Shown here: positions 6,927 to 27,720 of the stretch, piece after piece | Layout: every line of letters starts with the position of its first letter | Numbering within the stretch: position 1 is the stretch's first letter | NCBI GenBank assembly: GCA_001045525.1 | Contig: LDWW01000030.1 | Span: 1-40,405, forward strand | Origin: Chitinispirillum alkaliphilum | GTDB taxonomy: Bacteria; Fibrobacterota; Chitinivibrionia; Chitinivibrionales; Chitinispirillaceae | Reading direction: 5' to 3' | DNA length: 40,405 bases | Made by a program: the position numbers and the translations under genes | The notes under the pieces: generated by a model | What the model was told of the DNA's origin: nothing | Database searches by the model: none | The model's input: the letters and a program-made list of their open reading frames with translations, nothing else

Positions 6927-9900
6927 CTAACGATTAACGGAAATTTTCACCTGTTCACTAAGATTCACATTCGGATTATCCGGGCTCACCGCATTAACTA
7001 TCGCCAGATATGTTCCGGTACTTACCAATCTTTGATTCCTGTTTCTCAGATCCCAGACATGTAAAATTTTGCCGGGAACAGTTCTGTCATCAATGGAGGC
7101 AGTGTACACTACGTTCCCCATGTTATCATAAATTGCCAGACTTGCATTCAAATTTATGTCTGCAGCCATGGGATGGTCAGGTTCGATAACAAATGCCATA
7201 CCCTGCCTGAAATCCAACCCTGGTATTACAGGCCCATCACCGACTTTGCACGGGTTTGGACCAACAGCAAGCCTTAGGCTGACTGGAATTTCCCCTGTCC
7301 TCAGCAGTACGCGCCTGTTTTCAGGATTACTCTGAACATTATTGGACTGATCACGCACATTACCCTCAGTATGTATGAAAACAGAATCACCTGAAGCCAC
7401 AAACATATGAGGCGGATTTTTTCCTTTGACAATAAACCTGTACTTCAGAGCATCGCGGTCATGATATTCAACAGTAAAAGTGTACCCTGTTTCGAAACCA
7501 TCTCTGATACCCTTGAGTTTAAAGGGGATCGGTGAGAAAACATCTTCCGCAACCGCTTCACTGAACGTGATGGTAAGAGTATCTTCTGCAACAATGCCTT
7601 CGGAAAGAACTTTGCCCAGACTGTAGAGGGCGTCAACTATAACCGGTGCAGCCCTGTCCCTTACGGTCCCAGCCACCGGCTCATCAAACCCATCCACCTT
7701 TATCTGCGTGATCATGTTTCCTGATGTCTGAAATGGAACATCATGATGAAATGCTTGGGAAATATCCACCGTTATGCTTGAATTGTCTGTGTGATAGGCT
7801 ATCCTTTCACCTTCAAGCGGGTCAGTCTGGTTATTTCCTGTCCAGAATAATTCAACCTGAAGATCATTTTTATTCACATCTTTATTGAACCATATCCTGA
7901 CCTGGTTTACTATACCATCAGCATTGGTGTCAAAGTAAAATGCGGAGTCGATACCCGGGGGTATCGGGCGCAGGCCTAAGATTACGGCCCTGTTTTCAGG
8001 ATGTACCCGTGCTCCATCCCGTGCATCGATAATATTGCGGTTTGGGTTAAATCTGAGCAGATCTCCTTTCTGGGGAGCATTTTGGCCCATATCTGCAGTT
8101 ACCAGTTTAACATGGTCACCCTGTGGCAATACGTTTAGAACAGTTACAGGAATTTCTGTCTGATCCTCCTGCTGTTTTCTTAACAAGAGACTCTGACCGA
8201 GAAGGTTACTTAACACAATATCTTCTGTAAAAGTAAGCAGAAGTGTATCGACTCCTGAACCGATTTTCTCTGATACCATCCCAGATTTAATCAGTGGCCC
8301 AACGCTATCCACAACCCTGAACAGAGCTTCGACACCAGGTATATCGGGTGTAAGAGGGTTATAAAAGAAGTGAGTTCCCAGATCTGGACGACCACTGTAA
8401 GTTGTGTATCCCTGCGGGAATTCCTCGGGGAAATTTACCGTTATATGACGCGGACTGTTAAGCACAATCTGCCCTGATCCCGATGCTACCCTTCTGTAAC
8501 CATCCGTTCTGTTCGGCCAGAAAAGCTCTATAGAATCGGGAATCGTTTCCTCGGTGATATCTATATTATAGTAAACCTCCATTCGGTTCACCCTGCCGTT
8601 TCCATTATCGGCAAACACAGCACCATAATCGATATCTGCAGAGGTGACATAAAAAAAGATGTTACTCCTTGATGCAGAGGTGATGGTAGGATCATCCTGA
8701 GCGGAAACCGAAATAGTTCCGTTATCTATCTCAATTAATCCCTTTACCCATACCCTGATCTCTCCGTTTTGCAGGTTTACACTGGTTACAGGGCTTTCAC
8801 TGTCAGCTGATGTGTAAACCTCTAAACCCGGATAGGGGTCGAAAGAAAAATGAATCATATTTGCCCTGTCTGTAACCAGCTGATTACCATCCTCACCACC
8901 GAGAGCTCGTATGACGACAGGTAACCTCTGACCGGCTTCACCGCTAAGTACAGCTGCTGGGTTGTAATCCACTGTATCCGCGTAGAAAATTGCCAGCCTG
9001 TCGGGGTCGCGCCCAACGATCAGCTCTCCTTCGTCAACAGCACCATTGGCCATGAGCGTCGCGCGAAGTGTATAGATGTCATCACGGCGACCGCCTGTGA
9101 TTGTGGCGTAAAATTGAACAGAGCCGCTTTCGTCTGTGTATTTTAAACGTTCACCCTCTATGGTGCCGATGTTTTCATCCAGACTTTCTATGGCTACCTG
9201 TGTTGGAGTGTTAATCAGGTTACCGAATCTGTCGTACACTGTCAGATTTACAATGTAGTTTTGTCCGGGCATGATAATGGATGGCTGAGCGTCAGGATGA
9301 TTTTTTGAAACCGGATCGGTGAAAACAATACTCTCCGGATCTCCGGGCAGAATTTCAATTGGGTTTGATCTTCCGGAAAACCCGGGGTTCTCAAGTTCAT
9401 CCGCGGCTTCCACATACTCTATACCCCCTTCGGGCACAGTCGTAAAGTATACAATTGCTTCAACATGTTGCAATGCAGGAATATGATCGATATGAACCTG
9501 CCTTGGTGGCTCTATTACCTGAAACAGTGGGTTTCCAGAAGCAAGATTCACCCACACATCTTCAAGATCTCTGTCAAAAGGCTCCATTCCTGCTACCCGT
9601 GGCTTAACGATAAGCCGAACGTGATCTCCGGCACGTACACTGTTTAGAACCTGTTCCGAATGCAGATCCCGGATTTCAACCAGAAAATCGTTTGCCGGTC
9701 TTCTGCCAAGTGTAATTGGTCTGTTGTCAGGATGCACAGTTGCACCATGGCGCATGTCAACAACACCACTTCCCGGAACAAAACGAAGCTGATCATTCTC
9801 CTGAGGTGCATTTGGTCCAAGATCATCCACTACTACATGGAATAAGTTACCATGTGGAAGAATTTCCCTGACATTCAGGATAAATTCCTCATTGCTGCCC

Positions 9901-12743
9901 TGCTTAATAAGGAGCAGAGTGTTTCCGCGCAGACTTTCAAGATTAATCTGCTCTGTAAATGTAAGTATCAGAGTGTCAACCCCTGGGCGGTCTTTGTCAA
10001 TCACCAGCCCGGTACCAAGAAGCGGACCAACGCTGTCTATCACTTTGAAGCTGGTTGCCTGAGTTGGTACATCAGGGGTGAGCGGGTTCCAGTAAAACTG
10101 TGTGCCCAGTTCATCGTTGCTGCCGGTGAATGTGGTAATCCCAGCAGGGAAAGGTTGTGGGAAATTGACTCTGACAATTCTTGAATCTGCCGGGTCCAGT
10201 GAAATGTTGTTGCGATCTACGACTCTTCTTTCTCCGCTGCTGTTTGGCCAGAATAGTTCAATTGAATCAGGGATAGTCTCCTGAGTGAGATTTTCGCCAT
10301 AGTACACTTCAAGATAATCAACCTGTCCGTATCCATTATTGGCGTACACTATCCCATGTTCAATATGAGGAGTGAAAAGAGAGAAAAAGATTCTCGACCG
10401 GGTACCCTGCTGAAGATTGTGTTCATCAGAGGTAACTATGATACTTCCGTTGTCAACTTCATTTACACCTGTAACCCATATTCTGACCTCTCCGCCGGAT
10501 AAGTTAACACTTGATATTGGATCTGTAGCATTCTCTGACTGGTATGCCACAAGATCAGAACTGAGAATAATCTGAACCTGTGCATTCACGTTAAGTCGCT
10601 CACCACCGCTTGTTGCCCGGATGACCACTGGAAGCCTCTGCCCGGCTTCACCCCTTAGCTCTGCATTGGGGTCATACTGCAAAGTGTCTCCGTAGAATAT
10701 TTCAAGGTCATTTACACTGGTGAATGTAACCGAGATTCTCTTTAAGGTAGAATTCCCCGATGCATCAGTTGCCTTAAGCCAGATATAGTTCCCGGGCATG
10801 TTGCTTTGCTGAAGCTCTTCGCGTGAAACGGTAATGTCGAAAACCTTACTTTGAGGGTTTGATACATCCACAGGCTGTGCATCACGCCACACTCTCCACT
10901 CCTGGTCCATTGACCATTTTATGTCCCGGGCTTCTGTTTCGTCGGTAATAGTTGCCCGTACTATTGTGGTCTCACTGTCCTCGCTCTGAGTTCTCCAGGA
11001 AAGGTAGGGGTATTCGTTATCTTGCTCGAATCCAGAACAACTGCTGTTGCTGCCTGAGTGTCTTTGTATGAGTTCCTGTGCATCTCCGGCGATTGCCAAT
11101 CTGCGGGTGAAGTCAAACTCTCCCTTTACCGTTCTCAACAGCGGCAGAAAATCGTAACGGAAACTGATATTGTCACCAGAGACAGACGGAGCCCTTCCCC
11201 TCAAGATATCGAAACCACCGTTTATAGTATCCCAGATTCTTTGCCTAACATTCTGGTGCACAGTTTCATCATCGAAAAAGAATCGCAATATACCACCATC
11301 CCCCTGATTTTGCACTGTGCCGTTATCACCGAAGAATACATCGGTCATGGTTTGGCGGGAGACAGGAAAGTCTATCAGTTCGATTGAGGGGTCGGCGAGG
11401 GACAAACGAGAGGCCTCTATAAACTGACGGCCAAAACCGGTGTAAAAGTCATCTAAGTAATTATTGTTGCCGCGTCCAAAGTGATACCTGTCCAGTGTTC
11501 TGGCATTTTGGTCATACTGGGGGTAACCAAAAGCTTCGGCAATGTTCCCCATGTGCCCCCACAATCCCTGGTTGTAGGCAACGATCATAGCTGAAAGGCC
11601 AAGGTAGGGATCGCCTTCCTCACGAGAAATCTCAATCCCCTCTCTCCAGCAAATATCCTGAGCGTAGGAAACAACATCATAGTTTGCAAAAAGAAAAAGG
11701 CTGGGGAAAAAAGAACCATTAATTGTTGTAGCGCTGTTCATCACAGTGCGCCGTCCATCCTGTGCCCTTGTGTAATAACCCATAAACTCCTCATTGCTTA
11801 TACTTAGCTCTGTGGAATTCCTTGCCGAAGAAAGCTGGGCTTCAAACTTTGGGAAAAAACTGGGATAGTTCATGGCTCTGTCTAAACCGGAAGGTCCCTC
11901 AACATGAAAGGGGGTAAATTCTGTACCATTGATAAAATCTTCCCGGAATGCATTGGTTCCGGCAAATGTCTCCTTAATTCCAATACCCATCAAAGTCTGC
12001 ATATCGATATTCAGGTACTCCTGAGATAGGGCAATACCCATCCAGAACATATACTGCGATTGATCTACTGTGAGATCAGTGTTACTTACTCTGAAGGTTT
12101 CCGTGGGTATAGCTATCTGTAGCTGCGTTTCTCCAAGCCAGGTATCCATCATTCCGGCAGAATACCTTCCTCCGCGTACACCAAGACTGTCATAAACTTC
12201 CGGGCGGTAAGCTGGATCGTAAAATGCGGGCAGATTGCTTATTCTGTCAAGCTGCGAAAGGGTAATGGGGTCCTCACCGATCGGGTCATCTGGAACACCC
12301 GGTGCCCCGGTTCTCAAAAGCAAAAACTCACTTCCTGGAACCGGGGTTGTTGTTTCAGGAAAGTTGCCCCAAGGATGGTTAAAATGACGGGTGTCCCCCG
12401 GGGTAATTCGGGCTGCCTGATCCTGTTGCGCATTGGGCAGATAATATAAATTTACCTCATTTTGTCCCCCACTCCGTGCCCTGTTGATAATCCTGAATGT
12501 AGAGTTATCCCATACCTCATCGGGTGAACCGGTCCACTCCCATCCCTCGTTTAAAAACCTGATACCTCCGAGAGTCCAGGAAGAATTGGTATTGTTCGTA
12601 ATCGACACCGATGTTCCGCTTTGATCAACACGCGCCACAACTGCGGCATATAAAGTGCTGTTAATTAACAGCAGGATCAGAAATAGAGCACTGATGCACC
12701 TAAGAAAATCGACTCCAGGGTATTTGACCCATTTTTTAATCAT
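6927..12743 (-). CDS. Giant secreted multi-domain protein with lysozyme-like N-terminus and duplicated Ig-like modules
   Basis: 1938 aa from ATG 12743, chosen because AGGAG lies 7 nt before it; a TTG five codons earlier is unlikely. Residues 1-35 are a signal peptide (basic start, long hydrophobic core, cleavage after LYA). Residues about 35-110 resemble a small beta (carbohydrate-binding-like) domain. Residues about 230-420 show IGIKETFAG and later MIVAYNQG, reminiscent of lysozyme/SLT-fold motifs; this is tentative. A module of Ig/Big-like beta domains occurs twice (about 680-1130 and about 1250-1690), each starting near GEAGQRLPVVIRA and including DSIELFWPN. A Big_1-like domain (about 1135-1235) lies between them. 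An EF-hand-like DTNADGIVNQ follows. The tail has YDNMGNVVYT...WDLRNRNQ...GTYLAIV, like FlgD/T9SS sorting domains. Probably cell-surface or secreted. Confidence 0.82.
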   Translation of the reverse strand: MIKKWVKYPGVDFLRCISALFLILLLINSTLYAAVVARVDQSGTSVSITNNTNSSWTLGGIRFLNEGWEWTGSPDEVWDNSTFRIINRARSGGQNEVNLYYLPNAQQDQAARITPGDTRHFNHPWGNFPETTTPVPGSEFLLLRTGAPGVPDDPIGEDPITLSQLDRISNLPAFYDPAYRPEVYDSLGVRGGRYSAGMMDTWLGETQLQIAIPTETFRVSNTDLTVDQSQYMFWMGIALSQEYLNIDMQTLMGIGIKETFAGTNAFREDFINGTEFTPFHVEGPSGLDRAMNYPSFFPKFEAQLSSARNSTELSISNEEFMGYYTRAQDGRRTVMNSATTINGSFFPSLFLFANYDVVSYAQDICWREGIEISREEGDPYLGLSAMIVAYNQGLWGHMGNIAEAFGYPQYDQNARTLDRYHFGRGNNNYLDDFYTGFGRQFIEASRLSLADPSIELIDFPVSRQTMTDVFFGDNGTVQNQGDGGILRFFFDDETVHQNVRQRIWDTINGGFDILRGRAPSVSGDNISFRYDFLPLLRTVKGEFDFTRRLAIAGDAQELIQRHSGSNSSCSGFEQDNEYPYLSWRTQSEDSETTIVRATITDETEARDIKWSMDQEWRVWRDAQPVDVSNPQSKVFDITVSREELQQSNMPGNYIWLKATDASGNSTLKRISVTFTSVNDLEIFYGDTLQYDPNAELRGEAGQRLPVVIRATSGGERLNVNAQVQIILSSDLVAYQSENATDPISSVNLSGGEVRIWVTGVNEVDNGSIIVTSDEHNLQQGTRSRIFFSLFTPHIEHGIVYANNGYGQVDYLEVYYGENLTQETIPDSIELFWPNSSGERRVVDRNNISLDPADSRIVRVNFPQPFPAGITTFTGSNDELGTQFYWNPLTPDVPTQATSFKVIDSVGPLLGTGLVIDKDRPGVDTLILTFTEQINLESLRGNTLLLIKQGSNEEFILNVREILPHGNLFHVVVDDLGPNAPQENDQLRFVPGSGVVDMRHGATVHPDNRPITLGRRPANDFLVEIRDLHSEQVLNSVRAGDHVRLIVKPRVAGMEPFDRDLEDVWVNLASGNPLFQVIEPPRQVHIDHIPALQHVEAIVYFTTVPEGGIEYVEAADELENPGFSGRSNPIEILPGDPESIVFTDPVSKNHPDAQPSIIMPGQNYIVNLTVYDRFGNLINTPTQVAIESLDENIGTIEGERLKYTDESGSVQFYATITGGRRDDIYTLRATLMANGAVDEGELIVGRDPDRLAIFYADTVDYNPAAVLSGEAGQRLPVVIRALGGEDGNQLVTDRANMIHFSFDPYPGLEVYTSADSESPVTSVNLQNGEIRVWVKGLIEIDNGTISVSAQDDPTITSASRSNIFFYVTSADIDYGAVFADNGNGRVNRMEVYYNIDITEETIPDSIELFWPNRTDGYRRVASGSGQIVLNSPRHITVNFPEEFPQGYTTYSGRPDLGTHFFYNPLTPDIPGVEALFRVVDSVGPLIKSGMVSEKIGSGVDTLLLTFTEDIVLSNLLGQSLLLRKQQEDQTEIPVTVLNVLPQGDHVKLVTADMGQNAPQKGDLLRFNPNRNIIDARDGARVHPENRAVILGLRPIPPGIDSAFYFDTNADGIVNQVRIWFNKDVNKNDLQVELFWTGNNQTDPLEGERIAYHTDNSSITVDISQAFHHDVPFQTSGNMITQIKVDGFDEPVAGTVRDRAAPVIVDALYSLGKVLSEGIVAEDTLTITFSEAVAEDVFSPIPFKLKGIRDGFETGYTFTVEYHDRDALKYRFIVKGKNPPHMFVASGDSVFIHTEGNVRDQSNNVQSNPENRRVLLRTGEIPVSLRLAVGPNPCKVGDGPVIPGLDFRQGMAFVIEPDHPMAADINLNASLAIYDNMGNVVYTASIDDRTVPGKILHVWDLRNRNQRLVSTGTYLAIVNAVSPDNPNVNLSEQVKISVNR

Positions 12744-13130
12744 GATAATTCTCCTCAATACGTATGCAGAATGTGTGCTGACTTGTGTTTATGATAAGCC
12801 ATGCCCCGCTTAACCGTTTAACTTTTATAAATTCTGAAGCGAGCATAAATATAATATAGGAAATATTCTGCCTAACAGGGGAAAAATTTTGCCCCAATAA
12901 TCTTATACGGGGTATTTCAGTTCATGCTCAACCTGTAAGACACTAATGAGGGGTGTTGTCCGGAAAACTCACTTTTTTAAAAAACATTCCCTTGACGGGA
13001 GTTTCTGAGGGAATGGGAGTATGCTGATCTTTCCCTGAACCCGCTATACTCCATATACAGTATTAGTCGGTAAAATAGCGCTATGAAGCAAATACTGGAA
13101 AGGGTCTTGGAAGCTAAATGCTATGAATAA
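12744..13130. other. Leader and promoter region of the 1938-aa protein gene
   Basis: Non-coding. It contains GGGGAAAAATTTTGCCCC (12878-12895), a near-perfect palindrome and possible operator, and an AT-rich TATATTATA-type segment at about 12848-12858 on the minus strand that could be a -10 region. A terminator for the upstream transcript lies at 12979-13015. Confidence 0.4.
12979..13015 (-). terminator. Second terminator downstream of the split surface protein
   Basis: On the minus strand CATTCCCT pairs perfectly with AGGGAATG over a 15-nt loop and is followed by TTTTTT. It lies about 160 nt beyond the stop at 13176, in tandem with the weaker hairpin at 13131-13159. Confidence 0.7.
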
Positions 13131-13175: not shown

Positions 13176-16100
13176 CTACTTAACTACAGCGAATTTTACT
13201 CTTTCAGAAAGTATCACTCTTCCTGCATCAAGGTTGGTAACATTTGCGATTAACAGATAGGTTCCTTCCGAAACAAACCTGCCGTTTCTGTTTCTGAGGT
13301 CCCAGGTCATTACAATTCCGTTGTTTGAACGCTCTTGCGCTTCGGGTGGAGCTGTATAGACGATATTTCCAAGTTTGTCGTAGATAGCAAGATCCAGTTT
13401 GGCGTTGATATTTTCAAAGATCTGTGTGTTATCACCAATAATTTGAATTATAAGGCCTTCATGAGACCTGCCTGTTGAAGGCAGATAAACTCCATCAGCC
13501 CCGACACGCACAGGACTTGGGCCAACTATAAGCCTTAGATTTATGGGAGGATCCCTGACTTCAAGAGGTACCCTACGGTTTGCAGGATTGTTCTGGATAT
13601 TTTCATCCCCATCTCTCACTCCGCTATTAGGGTTGATGAAAATGGAGTCCCCGTTGTTTGGAAAGACAAAGCTTTCCAGTGTTGAGTTAACTGAAAACCT
13701 GTAGGATCCACCGGATCCTCTTCCCAGATACCCCAGTTCGAGCTGGTACCCGGTAATGGGGGAAATGAAGGAAAAAGGTGTTGCAGTGAGCTGGTTTTCC
13801 ATAACGGATTCACTAAACACCACAGTCAGGGTATCTATTCTGTTTTCTCCTTCACCAAACTCATAGACAGCATTTGTGATAACGGGAGCCGCTCTGTCTC
13901 TGACGGTTCCTGTAACAGCCCTGTCGTAATCTGTGCTGTTGATTGTTACTGTCATATTACCAGATGTCTGGTTATCGACACTGTTATTGAAGGCATCTCT
14001 TACATTCACAGCTATAACGGAGTTATCTCCGTAGCTATGGGCTTCCCCGCTGATTTCACCTGTAGTGTTTCCCAAGGTCCAGGAGAAAGTGAAAGTAAGA
14101 TTAGAAATGTTCTCTTCTTTATTCAGCCAGATTATAACATTGTCCACGATACCATCAGCATTGGTGTCATAATAGAATGCTGAGTCGATTCCCGGAGGAA
14201 CTTGCCTCATGTTCAGTGCAACGGGACGGTTCTCAGGATGAACTGTTGCTCCGTGCCGGGCATCCCTTACTCCGCTGCCGGGGTTAAAACGGAGGAGATC
14301 ATGTTCCGCGGGAGAAAGCTCACCATTGTCTTCGATGATAAACCTCACTCTTCCATCTTCAGATATTGCACTGATTACATTGAGAGGTATTTCGTAATCA
14401 AAGCCGGCCTTTCTGAGAAGAAGAGTTTCTCCTCTGAGACTTTCTGGATTGATACTTTCTGAAAAGCTTGCAATGATTGTGTCAACTCCAGGTGTGAGCC
14501 TCTCAACGAGTGTTGCAGAAGTGATCAGCGGACCTATACTATCGATCACATCAAACCGTGTTATTATTTGATTGGTTGCACCCGGACTGGTGTAATAGTG
14601 CGTACCAAGCCTGTTTGTGCTCTGAAAAGAGGTGTATCCTTCACCGAATGGCTCAGAAAACCGCACCGCCACAAGAGTTGGGTTAGCGCTGTCCCACTCA
14701 AGCTGTTCTCCGTATGCTTTTCTGCGATACTGAGGTTCCTCACGAGGCCAGTATAAAACTATCGAATCCGGCTTATCGCTTAGCGGTTGGGTGTAAAATA
14801 CGGCCATGCTGTCAAGTCTGCCGTAGCCGTTATTGGCAAAAACTATCCCATGCTCAATTCCTGAAGGGGGCGGGGTAAAGTATATCTGTGCCCTTTCGGT
14901 ACCAAGCAGGGTAATGTCATCAACAGGGCTTACGGCTATTCTGCCGTTTGTAACCAGGTCAACTCCGGTGATCCACACGACCGCTCTGCCCTCTGTCAGC
15001 CTTGTCTGGGTTATTGGTTCAGCCGATTCCTGAGTTTGGTACACCCTTAGATTTGCGCTTGGGGTGAGTGTGAAAGAGATCTCTGAATTTACATTTGTCT
15101 GGAGCTGTGTGCCACCGATCCCTCCGTGTGCTTCGATAACTACCGGAAATCTCACACCGACCCGTCCTCTTACCTCTTCAGTTCGTGTCCCGAGCGGATT
15201 TTCATAAAAAATAGCAAGGCGGTTTCTTGCTTCACCAACTCTGATTGCAGCAGTGTCCGCAGAGTTAGGATTTCCCGCAATTATAGCTCTCAGATCGAAC
15301 AGATCGTCCCGCAGCCCACCTGTTACGGTTGCTTCAAACTGCACCCGTCCCTCTTCATTTGAAGTTCCCACGCCTGAACCGACGATGTCCCCGATTTCAG
15401 GCTGAAGACTCTCGATTATGATTCCTGCAGACTGGTCGACTCTGTTGCCATATTCATCCCGAACAGAAATTTCGACATCGAAATTGTCCCCGAAATTGAG
15501 TGTGGGGGGAGCAATTCCGGTTCTGTTTGATGGCGGATTGTCGAATTCCACTCTATAGGGGTCCCCAGGCAGAATTGTAATAGGGTCAGAGGCGCCCAGA
15601 AATGGCAGGGACTGGTTGGGGTTTTGTGGGTTTTCCCAATATGCGCTGACCCTTACGATCTCATTTTCTCCTGAAGGGGGTATGGTTGTGAAATATACGG
15701 TCTCCTGTGAAGATAACAAATGCGTTATCTGATCAATCTGCAGGGCCTCATCTGTGGAAGCATCGAAAAGTGTTCTGTTGCCACCAAGACTTACCCTGAC
15801 ATGGTTGATATCATGTATAAACGGTTCACCGTTTCTGGTAGGTGTTATTCTCAGCATCACATGATGGCCGGCTCTGACCCGATTGCCCGGGATTGGATTG
15901 CCCTGTAAATCGAGAACCTGAACCTCTAACTCGGTTTCCAGGCTTCTGTAGGGTAAAAAACCCACATCTGAAGTCACAGGTCTTCCGCTTTCATCCTCCC
16001 CCTCTATTACCAGCTCAACAAAAGCGTACTCCCCTATGGAGGAAACGCCCGAGAAGGTAATATTATTGGAACCGATAGAAATTGGTGTTGGGGGTATGTT

Positions 16101-16250
16101 AAGCTCGACTATGTCCCCCGATGGAATGGGGCGTACATTAAAAGCACCGACATAACTCTCATCGTAAGGAACATCTCTGAGCAGTCTGGCATATCTTATT
16201 CGGGGATTGTTCATAGTACCCTGAACAGTAAAATTAAACTGAGCTTCCAA
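13176..16250 (-). CDS. C-terminal part of a giant secreted Ig-like/FlgD-tailed protein (separated from its N-terminus by a frameshift)
   Basis: 1024 aa from a TTG at 16250 that has no ribosome binding site. Protein-like coding in this frame continues upstream through IIPEDNLFYTGN to the G run at 16311-16319. There it would join the beta-helix protein of the other frame, so the true gene is probably 13176-17763. Domains visible: a beta domain (about 1-105), a Big_1-like domain (about 230-335), and one copy of the module found twice in the 1938-aa neighbour (GRVGVRFPVVIEA, DSIVLYWP). These are followed by PGIDSAFYYDTNADGIVDN (EF-hand-like) and TVRDRAAPVI. The same tail follows: IYDKLGNIVYT, WDLRNRNGR, GTYLLIANV. 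It has no signal peptide of its own, which supports the split-gene reading. Confidence 0.8.
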   Translation of the reverse strand: MEAQFNFTVQGTMNNPRIRYARLLRDVPYDESYVGAFNVRPIPSGDIVELNIPPTPISIGSNNITFSGVSSIGEYAFVELVIEGEDESGRPVTSDVGFLPYRSLETELEVQVLDLQGNPIPGNRVRAGHHVMLRITPTRNGEPFIHDINHVRVSLGGNRTLFDASTDEALQIDQITHLLSSQETVYFTTIPPSGENEIVRVSAYWENPQNPNQSLPFLGASDPITILPGDPYRVEFDNPPSNRTGIAPPTLNFGDNFDVEISVRDEYGNRVDQSAGIIIESLQPEIGDIVGSGVGTSNEEGRVQFEATVTGGLRDDLFDLRAIIAGNPNSADTAAIRVGEARNRLAIFYENPLGTRTEEVRGRVGVRFPVVIEAHGGIGGTQLQTNVNSEISFTLTPSANLRVYQTQESAEPITQTRLTEGRAVVWITGVDLVTNGRIAVSPVDDITLLGTERAQIYFTPPPSGIEHGIVFANNGYGRLDSMAVFYTQPLSDKPDSIVLYWPREEPQYRRKAYGEQLEWDSANPTLVAVRFSEPFGEGYTSFQSTNRLGTHYYTSPGATNQIITRFDVIDSIGPLITSATLVERLTPGVDTIIASFSESINPESLRGETLLLRKAGFDYEIPLNVISAISEDGRVRFIIEDNGELSPAEHDLLRFNPGSGVRDARHGATVHPENRPVALNMRQVPPGIDSAFYYDTNADGIVDNVIIWLNKEENISNLTFTFSWTLGNTTGEISGEAHSYGDNSVIAVNVRDAFNNSVDNQTSGNMTVTINSTDYDRAVTGTVRDRAAPVITNAVYEFGEGENRIDTLTVVFSESVMENQLTATPFSFISPITGYQLELGYLGRGSGGSYRFSVNSTLESFVFPNNGDSIFINPNSGVRDGDENIQNNPANRRVPLEVRDPPINLRLIVGPSPVRVGADGVYLPSTGRSHEGLIIQIIGDNTQIFENINAKLDLAIYDKLGNIVYTAPPEAQERSNNGIVMTWDLRNRNGRFVSEGTYLLIANVTNLDAGRVILSERVKFAVVK

Positions 16251-17763
16251 ACGGTTTCCGGTATAAAAAAGGTTGTCTTCGGGTATGATTCTGGCGAGTG
16301 TGCTCTGTTGCCCCCCCCCTCTGAATCGCTCCGATATCTGCTATTTGGCCATCGCCTCCAAGCATTCCGATAAGATCGCAGCCCCCCCCCGCTATATGCT
16401 GACTAACGAGTGGGTTTTGCCAGTTGGGCACGAGAAAATCGGGACTGTTCGGGTCTTCGGAAAGAAACTCCGTTTCGATCCAGCGGATATTTGCAGATGC
16501 AGGAAAACCGGTTGTATCTTCAGGGCTTAATATCAAAGCCCCCTGTTGGCCACTTTGAGGTCTTCCCATGTTCTGCATGATATTAGGGATCCCTCCCCCA
16601 GCAGGTGGGGGCTCCTGCATAGCAGCATATACAGAATGCCTCATCCTCTTTCTGAACCGAAATTCAAAGGGAGGATGCCACAGCTCCCATCCCTCATACC
16701 TGAACTGGCTTCCGTATCCGTTATTCAAATAGTGCCTTGGCCGCCCGTAGATATTGTTGAAAATCAGATGCTGTACCCCTGCAGCCCAGAAACCAGCGTA
16801 ATTAAGATAATTCCTGAAAAAAGTGTTGTTGTATATGGCCAGAGGTGAGAGGAGATTTTCTTTAAAAGCAATAGCCCCTCCATACTGATATGCGTTTTGG
16901 TTTGTAACCTCCCCATCTGTGATATTGCGGGCATCCACCCTCATCACCTCCTGAAGGACACTGGGAGTATGATAGTTGTCATAGATCAGGTTGTAGCGTA
17001 TTGTGGAACCTAGATCCCACATCATCTCAAAATAGAGCCCCCAGGAGTTTGAGTGTATACGGTTGTTTTCGATAAGATGTCCTCCGCCCTGACCAAAAGC
17101 GGAAAAAGGGATAATATCTTCAACATCGATATCCCCCGGATTAGGATTGCCGAAAATTCCTCCCGCATTTCTGTCCTTGACCGCTATACCATAATAAGCG
17201 TTTTTAAACTCACTGTTTCTGACAATTATGTTACCGGTAATATCCAGGGTGAGTGCGGCATTTCCATAGAACAGACCGTAAACACCATGCTCCCCCCCCT
17301 CTTCGGGCCACACCCCGGGGTATCCGAAGGGGTAAGCGCCGCCACCGTCTACGATGATACCGTCGATTGTGACTCCCTGCACTCCTGAGATTCGCAGTGC
17401 ACCGTTACGGTAAAAGGTGATATGCGCCGGGTCTCTGGATTCCTCATAATTCCTGGGGCCCACGTTTACCCTGTCCTGGTATCGTATGGTGGGTTTGTTG
17501 TTTGGGTCTGCAGATCTGAGGGTAAGGTTGTGGAGCCGTTCATCTCTGGAGTTGACACTGATATGGATCTGCTGCTCAGGAGAATAGACAGCGTTGTCCA
17601 GGATTATGATTTCATCACCCGGGCTTGCCGCATTGATGGCAGACTGGATATCGGAGTACTGTCCGCTGCCGTCCTGTGAGACGGTGATCTGTGACTGTGA
17701 GAAAGCCGTATGTGCAGCGATGGCAAGGAAGAAAAATAGGTGGATAAATTTTCTGTCGAACAT
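16234..17763 (-). CDS. N-terminal part of the split surface protein: signal peptide and right-handed beta-helix
   Basis: 509 aa as read. Residues 1-22 are a signal peptide (cleavage near AFS). Residues about 25-480 are a pectin-lyase-type beta-helix. It opens with VSQDGSGQYSDIQSAINAA and DEIIILDNAVYS, followed by PbH1-like rungs such as NNRIHSNSWGLYF and YNLIYDNYH. The fold is common in polysaccharide lyases and adhesins; no catalytic set is identifiable. The helix closes with QIADIGAIQRGG. From the nine-G run on, the sequence (ATEHTRQNH...) is not protein-like and stops after 25 residues, while a neighbouring frame continues sensibly. AGGAG lies about 10 nt before the ATG. A sigma-70-like promoter is about 145 bp upstream. 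Confidence 0.82.
   Translation of the reverse strand: MFDRKFIHLFFFLAIAAHTAFSQSQITVSQDGSGQYSDIQSAINAASPGDEIIILDNAVYSPEQQIHISVNSRDERLHNLTLRSADPNNKPTIRYQDRVNVGPRNYEESRDPAHITFYRNGALRISGVQGVTIDGIIVDGGGAYPFGYPGVWPEEGGEHGVYGLFYGNAALTLDITGNIIVRNSEFKNAYYGIAVKDRNAGGIFGNPNPGDIDVEDIIPFSAFGQGGGHLIENNRIHSNSWGLYFEMMWDLGSTIRYNLIYDNYHTPSVLQEVMRVDARNITDGEVTNQNAYQYGGAIAFKENLLSPLAIYNNTFFRNYLNYAGFWAAGVQHLIFNNIYGRPRHYLNNGYGSQFRYEGWELWHPPFEFRFRKRMRHSVYAAMQEPPPAGGGIPNIMQNMGRPQSGQQGALILSPEDTTGFPASANIRWIETEFLSEDPNSPDFLVPNWQNPLVSQHIAGGGCDLIGMLGGDGQIADIGAIQRGGATEHTRQNHTRRQPFLYRKPFGSSV
16311..16319. repeat. C9/G9 homopolymer at the frameshift junction of the split surface protein
   Basis: Nine C on the plus strand (G9 in the coding strand). 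With nine G the frame runs into a stop at 16234. With eight G the beta-helix frame passes straight into RGGQQSTLARIIPEDN and on to the 1024-aa C-terminal part, giving one protein of about 1530 aa. It is either a slipped-strand phase-variation tract captured in an off state or a homopolymer sequencing error. Similar runs occur at 16382-16390 (C9, in frame) and 17292-17299 (C8, in frame) in the same gene. Confidence 0.85.
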
Positions 17764-18215: not shown

Positions 18216-18374
18216 ATGCATCAGAGAGTTGAGCCATATGTAACGCTTGACGATCGTCCTGACAGGGATACAGTAATAGAAAAAGACGAAGTATTGAGCA
18301 TAATCATAGATGTTGAGACTCTTTGTATAGAGGATTTCTATGACAAGTACTTCGAAACCCACAACAGGAGATAA
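18216..18374 (+). CDS. Small acidic protein of unknown function (52 aa)
   Basis: 52 aa, starting MHQRVEPYVTLDDRPDRD and ending YFETHNRR. A strong GGGAGGTG lies 6 nt before the ATG, and composition is protein-like (acidic, with a central IIIDVETL strand). Its end overlaps the start of the next small gene by 35 bp, and the pair shares the terminator at 18600-18646. I do not recognise a family. The short acidic sequence before an overlapping partner resembles small regulatory or peptide-precursor gene pairs, but that is speculation. Confidence 0.6.
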   Translation: MHQRVEPYVTLDDRPDRDTVIEKDEVLSIIIDVETLCIEDFYDKYFETHNRR

Positions 18375-18552
18375 GTTCTCTTCTGAGCGGGGCGGTTTGT
18401 CGCTGAAAGGAATCGGCAGTGTGGTTGGGATGCAATCTGTGTTTCCCTGGGGGATTCCCCCGGTATTCCAGCCGGATAGGGGTGAAAGCCAAAAAGAGGT
18501 CCGGCCTGAAAACCGTGTGATAGCCAAAAGGGACAGTTTTGCAACAGCTTGA
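18340..18552 (+). CDS. Small Gly/Pro-containing protein overlapping the previous gene (70 aa)
   Basis: 70 aa from ATG 18340, with AGAGG 7 nt upstream, inside the end of the preceding gene. No signal peptide or membrane segment. The middle is GIGSVVGMQSVFPWGIPPVF and the C-terminus is basic and polar. It does not resemble a family I know. Its reality rests on the ribosome binding site, the coupled position and the terminator that follows 48 nt later. Confidence 0.5.
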   Translation: MTSTSKPTTGDKFSSERGGLSLKGIGSVVGMQSVFPWGIPPVFQPDRGESQKEVRPENRVIAKRDSFATA

Positions 18553-26431: not shown

Positions 26432-26445
26432 GGGGGGGGGGGGGG
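26432..26445. repeat. G14 homopolymer abutting the activase promoter
   Basis: Fourteen consecutive G on the plus strand (C14 in the direction of the activase gene), ending 4 bp upstream of the sigma-54 -24 element. Runs of this length are slippage-prone. Changes in length would alter the spacing between upstream activator sites and the promoter. Confidence 0.85.
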
Positions 26446-27212: not shown

Positions 27213-27720
27213 TTATTACTTCTTTTTGGGCAAGTGTGAAGTTTACCTTGGTTCATAATACCGCCTGTATTGTCGTCAAAACCAAATAGCGCATGTCCCA
27301 TCAACGCTCCAAGTATTGTCTGTATAAACCCCTGCACATTGCTCATTAATAACTACCGCACCCAAGGCATTACTATTTCCTCTAATCGAAGGGTATGATG
27401 CCTTATCAATATCAGTCAAAAGCAAATATACATCAGTATTATCCCGTGTCCCTAAATAACGCCCCCCCCCAAAACCCTACCTCTTTAACAGACATTTTTT
27501 CTGCGCCACTATATCTAATCTGGGTTTCAACTAGAGAACCAAAATTATCTGGCAAAGACTGTGAGCCAACGTTCCTCAAATAAATGGTGTTTTTTCTACC
27601 ATCTGGATCAACAAATATGATTGGGTTGTTGAGGGCAGTATAAACACCAGTTCTCACGTGCTGGGTCAACAGCCGTCCACATCCCACCTCCGCATCATAG
27701 TACCTTGCTCCAAAAAGGTA
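27209..27720 (-). pseudogene. Rhs/YD-repeat protein remnant: core end and variable C-terminal domain, frameshifted
   Basis: After a stop (TAG at 27723-27721) the frame reads YLFGARYYDAEVG, then NNPIIFVDPDGRKN, the hallmark end of an Rhs core. The downstream part would be the variable toxin-like tip. At a G9 run (27470-27462) the frame shifts. As read it ends ALFRDTG at 27439. With eight G it continues RYLGTRDNTDVYLLLTDID and stays open to 27276. A third frame (27346-27209; MSNVQGFIQTILGALMGHAL) ends overlapping the next gene's ATG. The upstream part of the gene is missing; a 570-bp repeat begins about 100 bp away. It is either a decayed fragment or one with assembly errors. Confidence 0.7.
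27462..27470. repeat. C9/G9 homopolymer at the Rhs frameshift
   Basis: Nine C on the plus strand. Removing one base restores an open, protein-like frame across the next 190 bp of the Rhs remnant. This is the same one-base surplus seen at 16311-16319. Confidence 0.75.

Follow-up and report, generated by a model that had tools for sequence, protein, structure and literature searches.

Among the described systems closest to the locus presented here are the poly-G/poly-C contingency loci of Campylobacter jejuni and hmbR of Neisseria, in which a coding G run of 8–11 bases sets the frame of an exported protein. Contingency tracts of C. jejuni have 7 or more bases and switch at about 1e-3 per division (PMC4965091), and according to the passage of PMC4085013 that cites the finding, those of 8–9 bases are biased to insertion. 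Switching at G5–G8 is strongly reduced by mismatch repair in the meningococcus (PMC4085013). The authors of GeneTack regard singleton frameshifted genes as likely indel mutations or sequencing errors and clustered ones as phase-variation candidates (PMC3711429). The gene that we describe shares with the contingency loci the coding G run that sets the frame of a probably exported product; it differs from them in that its tract is not conserved, coding tracts are not enriched and mismatch repair is present, and it is known here from one assembled length. Like the GeneTack singletons (PMC3711429), it is the one member with a frame transition in an otherwise continuous family; unlike them, it has the transition at a G9 homopolymer and is intact elsewhere.

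The window, i.e., the whole stretch of DNA analysed, comprises 40,405 nucleotides of Chitinispirillum alkaliphilum. Nine C on its plus strand at 16311–16319 form a G9 run on the coding minus strand, the length of which sets the reading frame and at which the frame changes, as judged from ORF ends and frames and from homologues that are uninterrupted across the site. In the assembly, the first part of the gene is a 509-aa ORF (17763–16234, minus strand) with a signal-peptide-like N-terminus and a right-handed beta-helix; it reads ...ADIGAIQRGG through the run, followed by 24 off-frame residues and a stop. The second part (13176–16319, minus strand), which encodes Ig-like domains and a FlgD/PorU/CHU_C-like C-terminal domain, is open from the run for 1044–1047 codons with a single stop at its end (13176), compared with 60 and 73 stops in the other two minus-strand frames of the same stretch. 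The first-pass annotation, made from the letters of the window, had described a nine-G run splitting a protein of ~1530 aa, with ~1040 further residues behind it, and both the split and the sizes proved right.

That annotation had also held that the junction could be placed exactly at the run. Alignments of the first part with relatives stop near residue 484 (480–489 in most), and those of the second part mostly start at its residues 1–8, both parts matching one and the same frame in the relative; homology thus places the junction at the G9 run, 485 codons into the gene, in a Gly-rich spot already present in the family. The gene has a second G9 run (16382–16390, minus strand) at a distance of ~60 bases from the first; it is in frame and encodes A-G-G-G. 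The codons between both runs align gap-free with relatives, which rejects a frame change at 16382 rather than at 16311. The run listing and frame check revealed a further G8 run (17292–17299, minus strand), also in frame and encoding E-E-G-G-E; neither of these two runs figures in the first-pass annotation. The in-frame length of the 16311–16319 run could be eight or eleven, both matching the spacing in some relatives, so that the number of bases gained or lost is uncertain as well. No further stop or frameshift was found in the 1044 downstream codons, as the first reading had stated, and this part still aligns with relatives over its whole length; any real lesion would therefore be recent. 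Divergent from the gene lies a small ORF of ~52 aa (18217–18375, plus strand; MHQRVEPYVTLDD...), which has 84% DNA identity in the same-genus genome and adjoins a beta-helix gene start there (L168). The neighbouring 1943-aa ORF (6927–12758, minus strand) is paralogous to the C-terminal part, with which it shares 43% identity, and has a weak CHU_C domain.

Relatives were detected by an alignment-based scan of genome contigs, whereas a scan with P0001 alone gave none, and the comparison covered one genome per species among metagenome assemblies of Chitinispirillaceae, Chitinivibrionales and other Fibrobacterota. The two halves share a single reading frame in all 44 homologous copies, drawn from 20 related genomes, which identifies them as one ~1530-aa gene and rejects two separate genes. 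Many relatives carry several copies, with open frames of ~1500–1780 aa and some shorter, while the N-terminal domain is single-copy in the C. alkaliphilum genome. Within 50 codons around the junction, none of the 44 copies contained a stop or a G run longer than 5, so that the tract is private to the C. alkaliphilum lineage and a conserved contingency site is rejected. The same-genus genome (G001) was left out of the junction comparison since contig ends cut off all copies found in it; every gene-family copy inspected on its contigs C76, C102, C220, C14, C22, C90 and C168 stops in this way, suggesting near-identical repeats common to the gene-family copies. Another split homologue (L078, in G011) is broken at no homopolymer of at least 6 bases within the stretch examined.

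The N-terminal part matches Pfam Beta_helix with E = 4.3e-5 and 23.6 bits, just below the curated cut-off of 25.9. Its AlphaFold model (pLDDT 73, pTM 0.81) and a fold search agree on the repeat fold of a right-handed beta-helix, with fold matches to pectin methylesterase, pectate lyase and PL6 alginate lyase (E about 1e-5 to 1e-3 for these three) and to GH136 lacto-N-biosidase. The last 347 residues were modelled as a chain of Ig-like domains. The C-terminal domain (13179–13406, minus strand), a probable T9SS sorting domain that is missing from the truncated product, matches FlgD_ig (E = 0.0026), CHU_C (0.028) and the PorU C-terminus (0.036) weakly, each below the family cut-off, and PorU is the second fold match of the modelled C-terminal stretch at a low TM-score. 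SprA (446.9 bits summed) and PorU (512 bits) of the same genome score over the cut-off, indicating that T9SS machinery is present. Like T9SS cargo of the CHU_C/Por_Secre_tail type in Fibrobacterota and Bacteroidota, the product is a large multidomain predicted-exported protein with a C-terminal Ig-like domain, encoded in a genome with SprA and PorU; it differs from such cargo in that its C-terminal domain matches stay below the family cut-offs and its export is predicted. A T9SS-exported carbohydrate-binding or carbohydrate-active protein is the likeliest product, and export of the truncated form, devoid of both the Ig and the sorting domains, is predicted to fail. The first-pass annotation had called it a surface protein: its exported character is borne out, as a prediction, by the signal-peptide-like start and the C-terminal domain, but "surface" should be softened, as the beta-helix best matches carbohydrate-active enzymes.

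Run counts were obtained from a 380-kb sample of the genome (241 genes) together with the stretches around G≥9 runs, and expected counts from synonymous resampling that respects amino-acid and codon usage. GGG makes up 23% of the Gly codons of the genome. The 241 genes contained 5 coding G≥8 runs (4.0 expected) and 1 coding G≥9 run (1.07 expected); hence, in the 380-kb sample, coding poly-G is not enriched over the codon-usage expectation. The first gene part holds three G≥8 runs (p about 0.0018 by synonymous resampling), which is notable for one gene but not genome-wide, a few such genes being expected by chance among some thousands, and the whole window holds 6 against about 1 expected. About 37 runs of G≥9 occur in the genome. 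Apart from the run at the junction, some 12 coding G≥9/C≥9 runs, most of the coding ones, are in frame; several lie in housekeeping genes, and the hosts include HisF (a G9 at C14:118012), an RND transporter, radical-SAM proteins and a FliN-like protein (named by eye from sequence). Over the 380 kb, A/T runs of at least 7 bases are likewise mostly in frame and the few flagged shifts resemble gene boundaries, which lends no support to a generic homopolymer error of the kind left by a poor long-read consensus. Since most A/T and G runs of the assembly are in frame, the data do not suffer from gross homopolymer error, and an assembly error could have affected the longest G runs only. Illumina data can contain spurious homopolymer indels, chiefly in runs longer than 14 bp (PMC8808543); a miscall at nine bases is therefore possible, though it should not be presumed.

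Several other long tracts were observed. In the window, a G14 run (26432–26445, plus strand) lies ~100 bases upstream of the start of a minus-strand gene for a 1452-aa BcrAD_BadFG/DUF2229 protein (CoA-enzyme activase) and is possibly a variable tract in its promoter region; a G9 run with a frame change (27462–27470) lies in a decayed RHS-like remnant that also bears other stops. Poly-G tracts of 10–36 bases are common in several Chitinispirillaceae genomes, mostly outside long frames (L269–L298 in G018, L239–L268 in G001, intergenic in G000); some of the long ones directly follow a T run (TTTTTTTTGGGGGGGGGG), and many in G018 lie at contig ends. Among the beta-helix homologues of the termite-gut relative G018, one has a C17 tract ~94 bases before its ATG (L082, position 1748 onward; G018:C76). 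A second one carries a C9 between Shine-Dalgarno/ATG and signal peptide, out of frame (L185, position 3797; G018:C7).

A second gene is broken in a similar way. At G000:C2:180733-180742 (L004, L215) a G10 run splits a TonB_C/AgmX-like gene adjoined by an ExbD-like gene. In nearly all relatives this gene is a single frame of ~416–480 aa, and in the same genus it is 77% identical, with the conserved stretch TGGGGDPR. So broadly conserved a gene is unlikely to be a contingency locus; the same lesion in it therefore points to error or to chance slippage at long G runs.

It is established that the gene is in two halves here and is one gene in relatives, with the junction at the run and no second lesion. 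Our results favor, with reasonable but incomplete assurance, an assembly length miscall or a recent slippage mutation, taken as one joint reading of a chance indel in a single tract, over an evolved switch. Because all 44 copies in 20 genomes are continuous and none has more than 5 G at the junction, the gene is a singleton frameshift within a continuous family, and by the GeneTack criterion (PMC3711429) likely an indel or a sequencing error. The TonB_C gene with the same lesion argues in the same direction. Against the indel or miscall stand the three G≥8 runs in one half-gene, the excess of such runs in the window and the fact that most runs are in frame. Exported proteins are, moreover, the usual phase-variable class. 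The first-pass annotation had named a phase switch and a sequencing error as alternatives and had called surface proteins with poly-G tracts classic contingency loci. In such a switch, slipped-strand mispairing at the G tract would toggle an exported full-length protein, and the assembly would represent its OFF state. Tract length and frame-setting place speak for a switch: nine bases fall within the known poly-G contingency range, the insertion bias reported for G8–9 (in the cited passage of PMC4085013) is consistent with a gain of one, the remainder of the gene is intact, a second G9 lies close by, and two termite-gut (G018) homologues carry C tracts in their 5′ regions. Beyond the tract itself, however, a switch found no support: the site is conserved in none of the 44 homologues and falls on a Gly-rich spot that the family already has, 485 codons in, coding tracts show no genome-wide enrichment, the other coding G≥9 runs are mostly in frame and in housekeeping genes, the conserved TonB_C gene bears the same lesion, MutS and MutL of the mismatch repair system are present in the genome, and the G018 tracts may be artefacts, as contigs of the G018 assembly often end in poly-G. 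We consider a contingency gene unlikely here, although it is the most probable of the alternatives. Its extension to the family, that Chitinispirillaceae toggle T9SS-exported beta-helix proteins via poly-G/poly-C, coding here and in the 5′ regions in termite-gut relatives, as a phase-variable exported repertoire of uncultured and probably non-pathogenic polymer degraders, is more doubtful still.

The truncated frame and the single genomic copy of the N-terminal domain would also be consistent with an ordinary pseudogene, the gene being permanently lost in the lineage, but 1044 downstream codons without another stop or frameshift and a downstream part that aligns full-length with relatives make such a loss quite improbable; an old pseudogene in particular is unlikely given the absence of a second lesion in that stretch. 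Even less credit is given to recoding, by which RNA polymerase would slip, or ribosomes shift by +1, on the G run and some full-length protein would result: polymerases and ribosomes can slip on long homopolymers (PMC3711429, there of poly-A/T), but the site is unconserved in the family, unlike known programmed sites. Under the favored miscall or recent indel, a slippery coding G run in a ~1530-aa, probably T9SS-exported gene would have taken a chance length change in this single tract, either as an assembly length miscall or by recent replication slippage in the sampled population. The tract itself would then be under no selection for switching, and the frame loss at G9 would drop the Ig and the probable export/sorting domains from the product.

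Where relatives have a single gene, automated annotation would report two genes or a pseudogene. Unless the run proves to occur in mixed lengths, the finding is a caution, as G runs of 9–10 split at least two genes of the assembly, including one that is broadly conserved. If mixed run lengths were to be found, simple-repeat phase variation would reach a probable T9SS cargo in Fibrobacterota.
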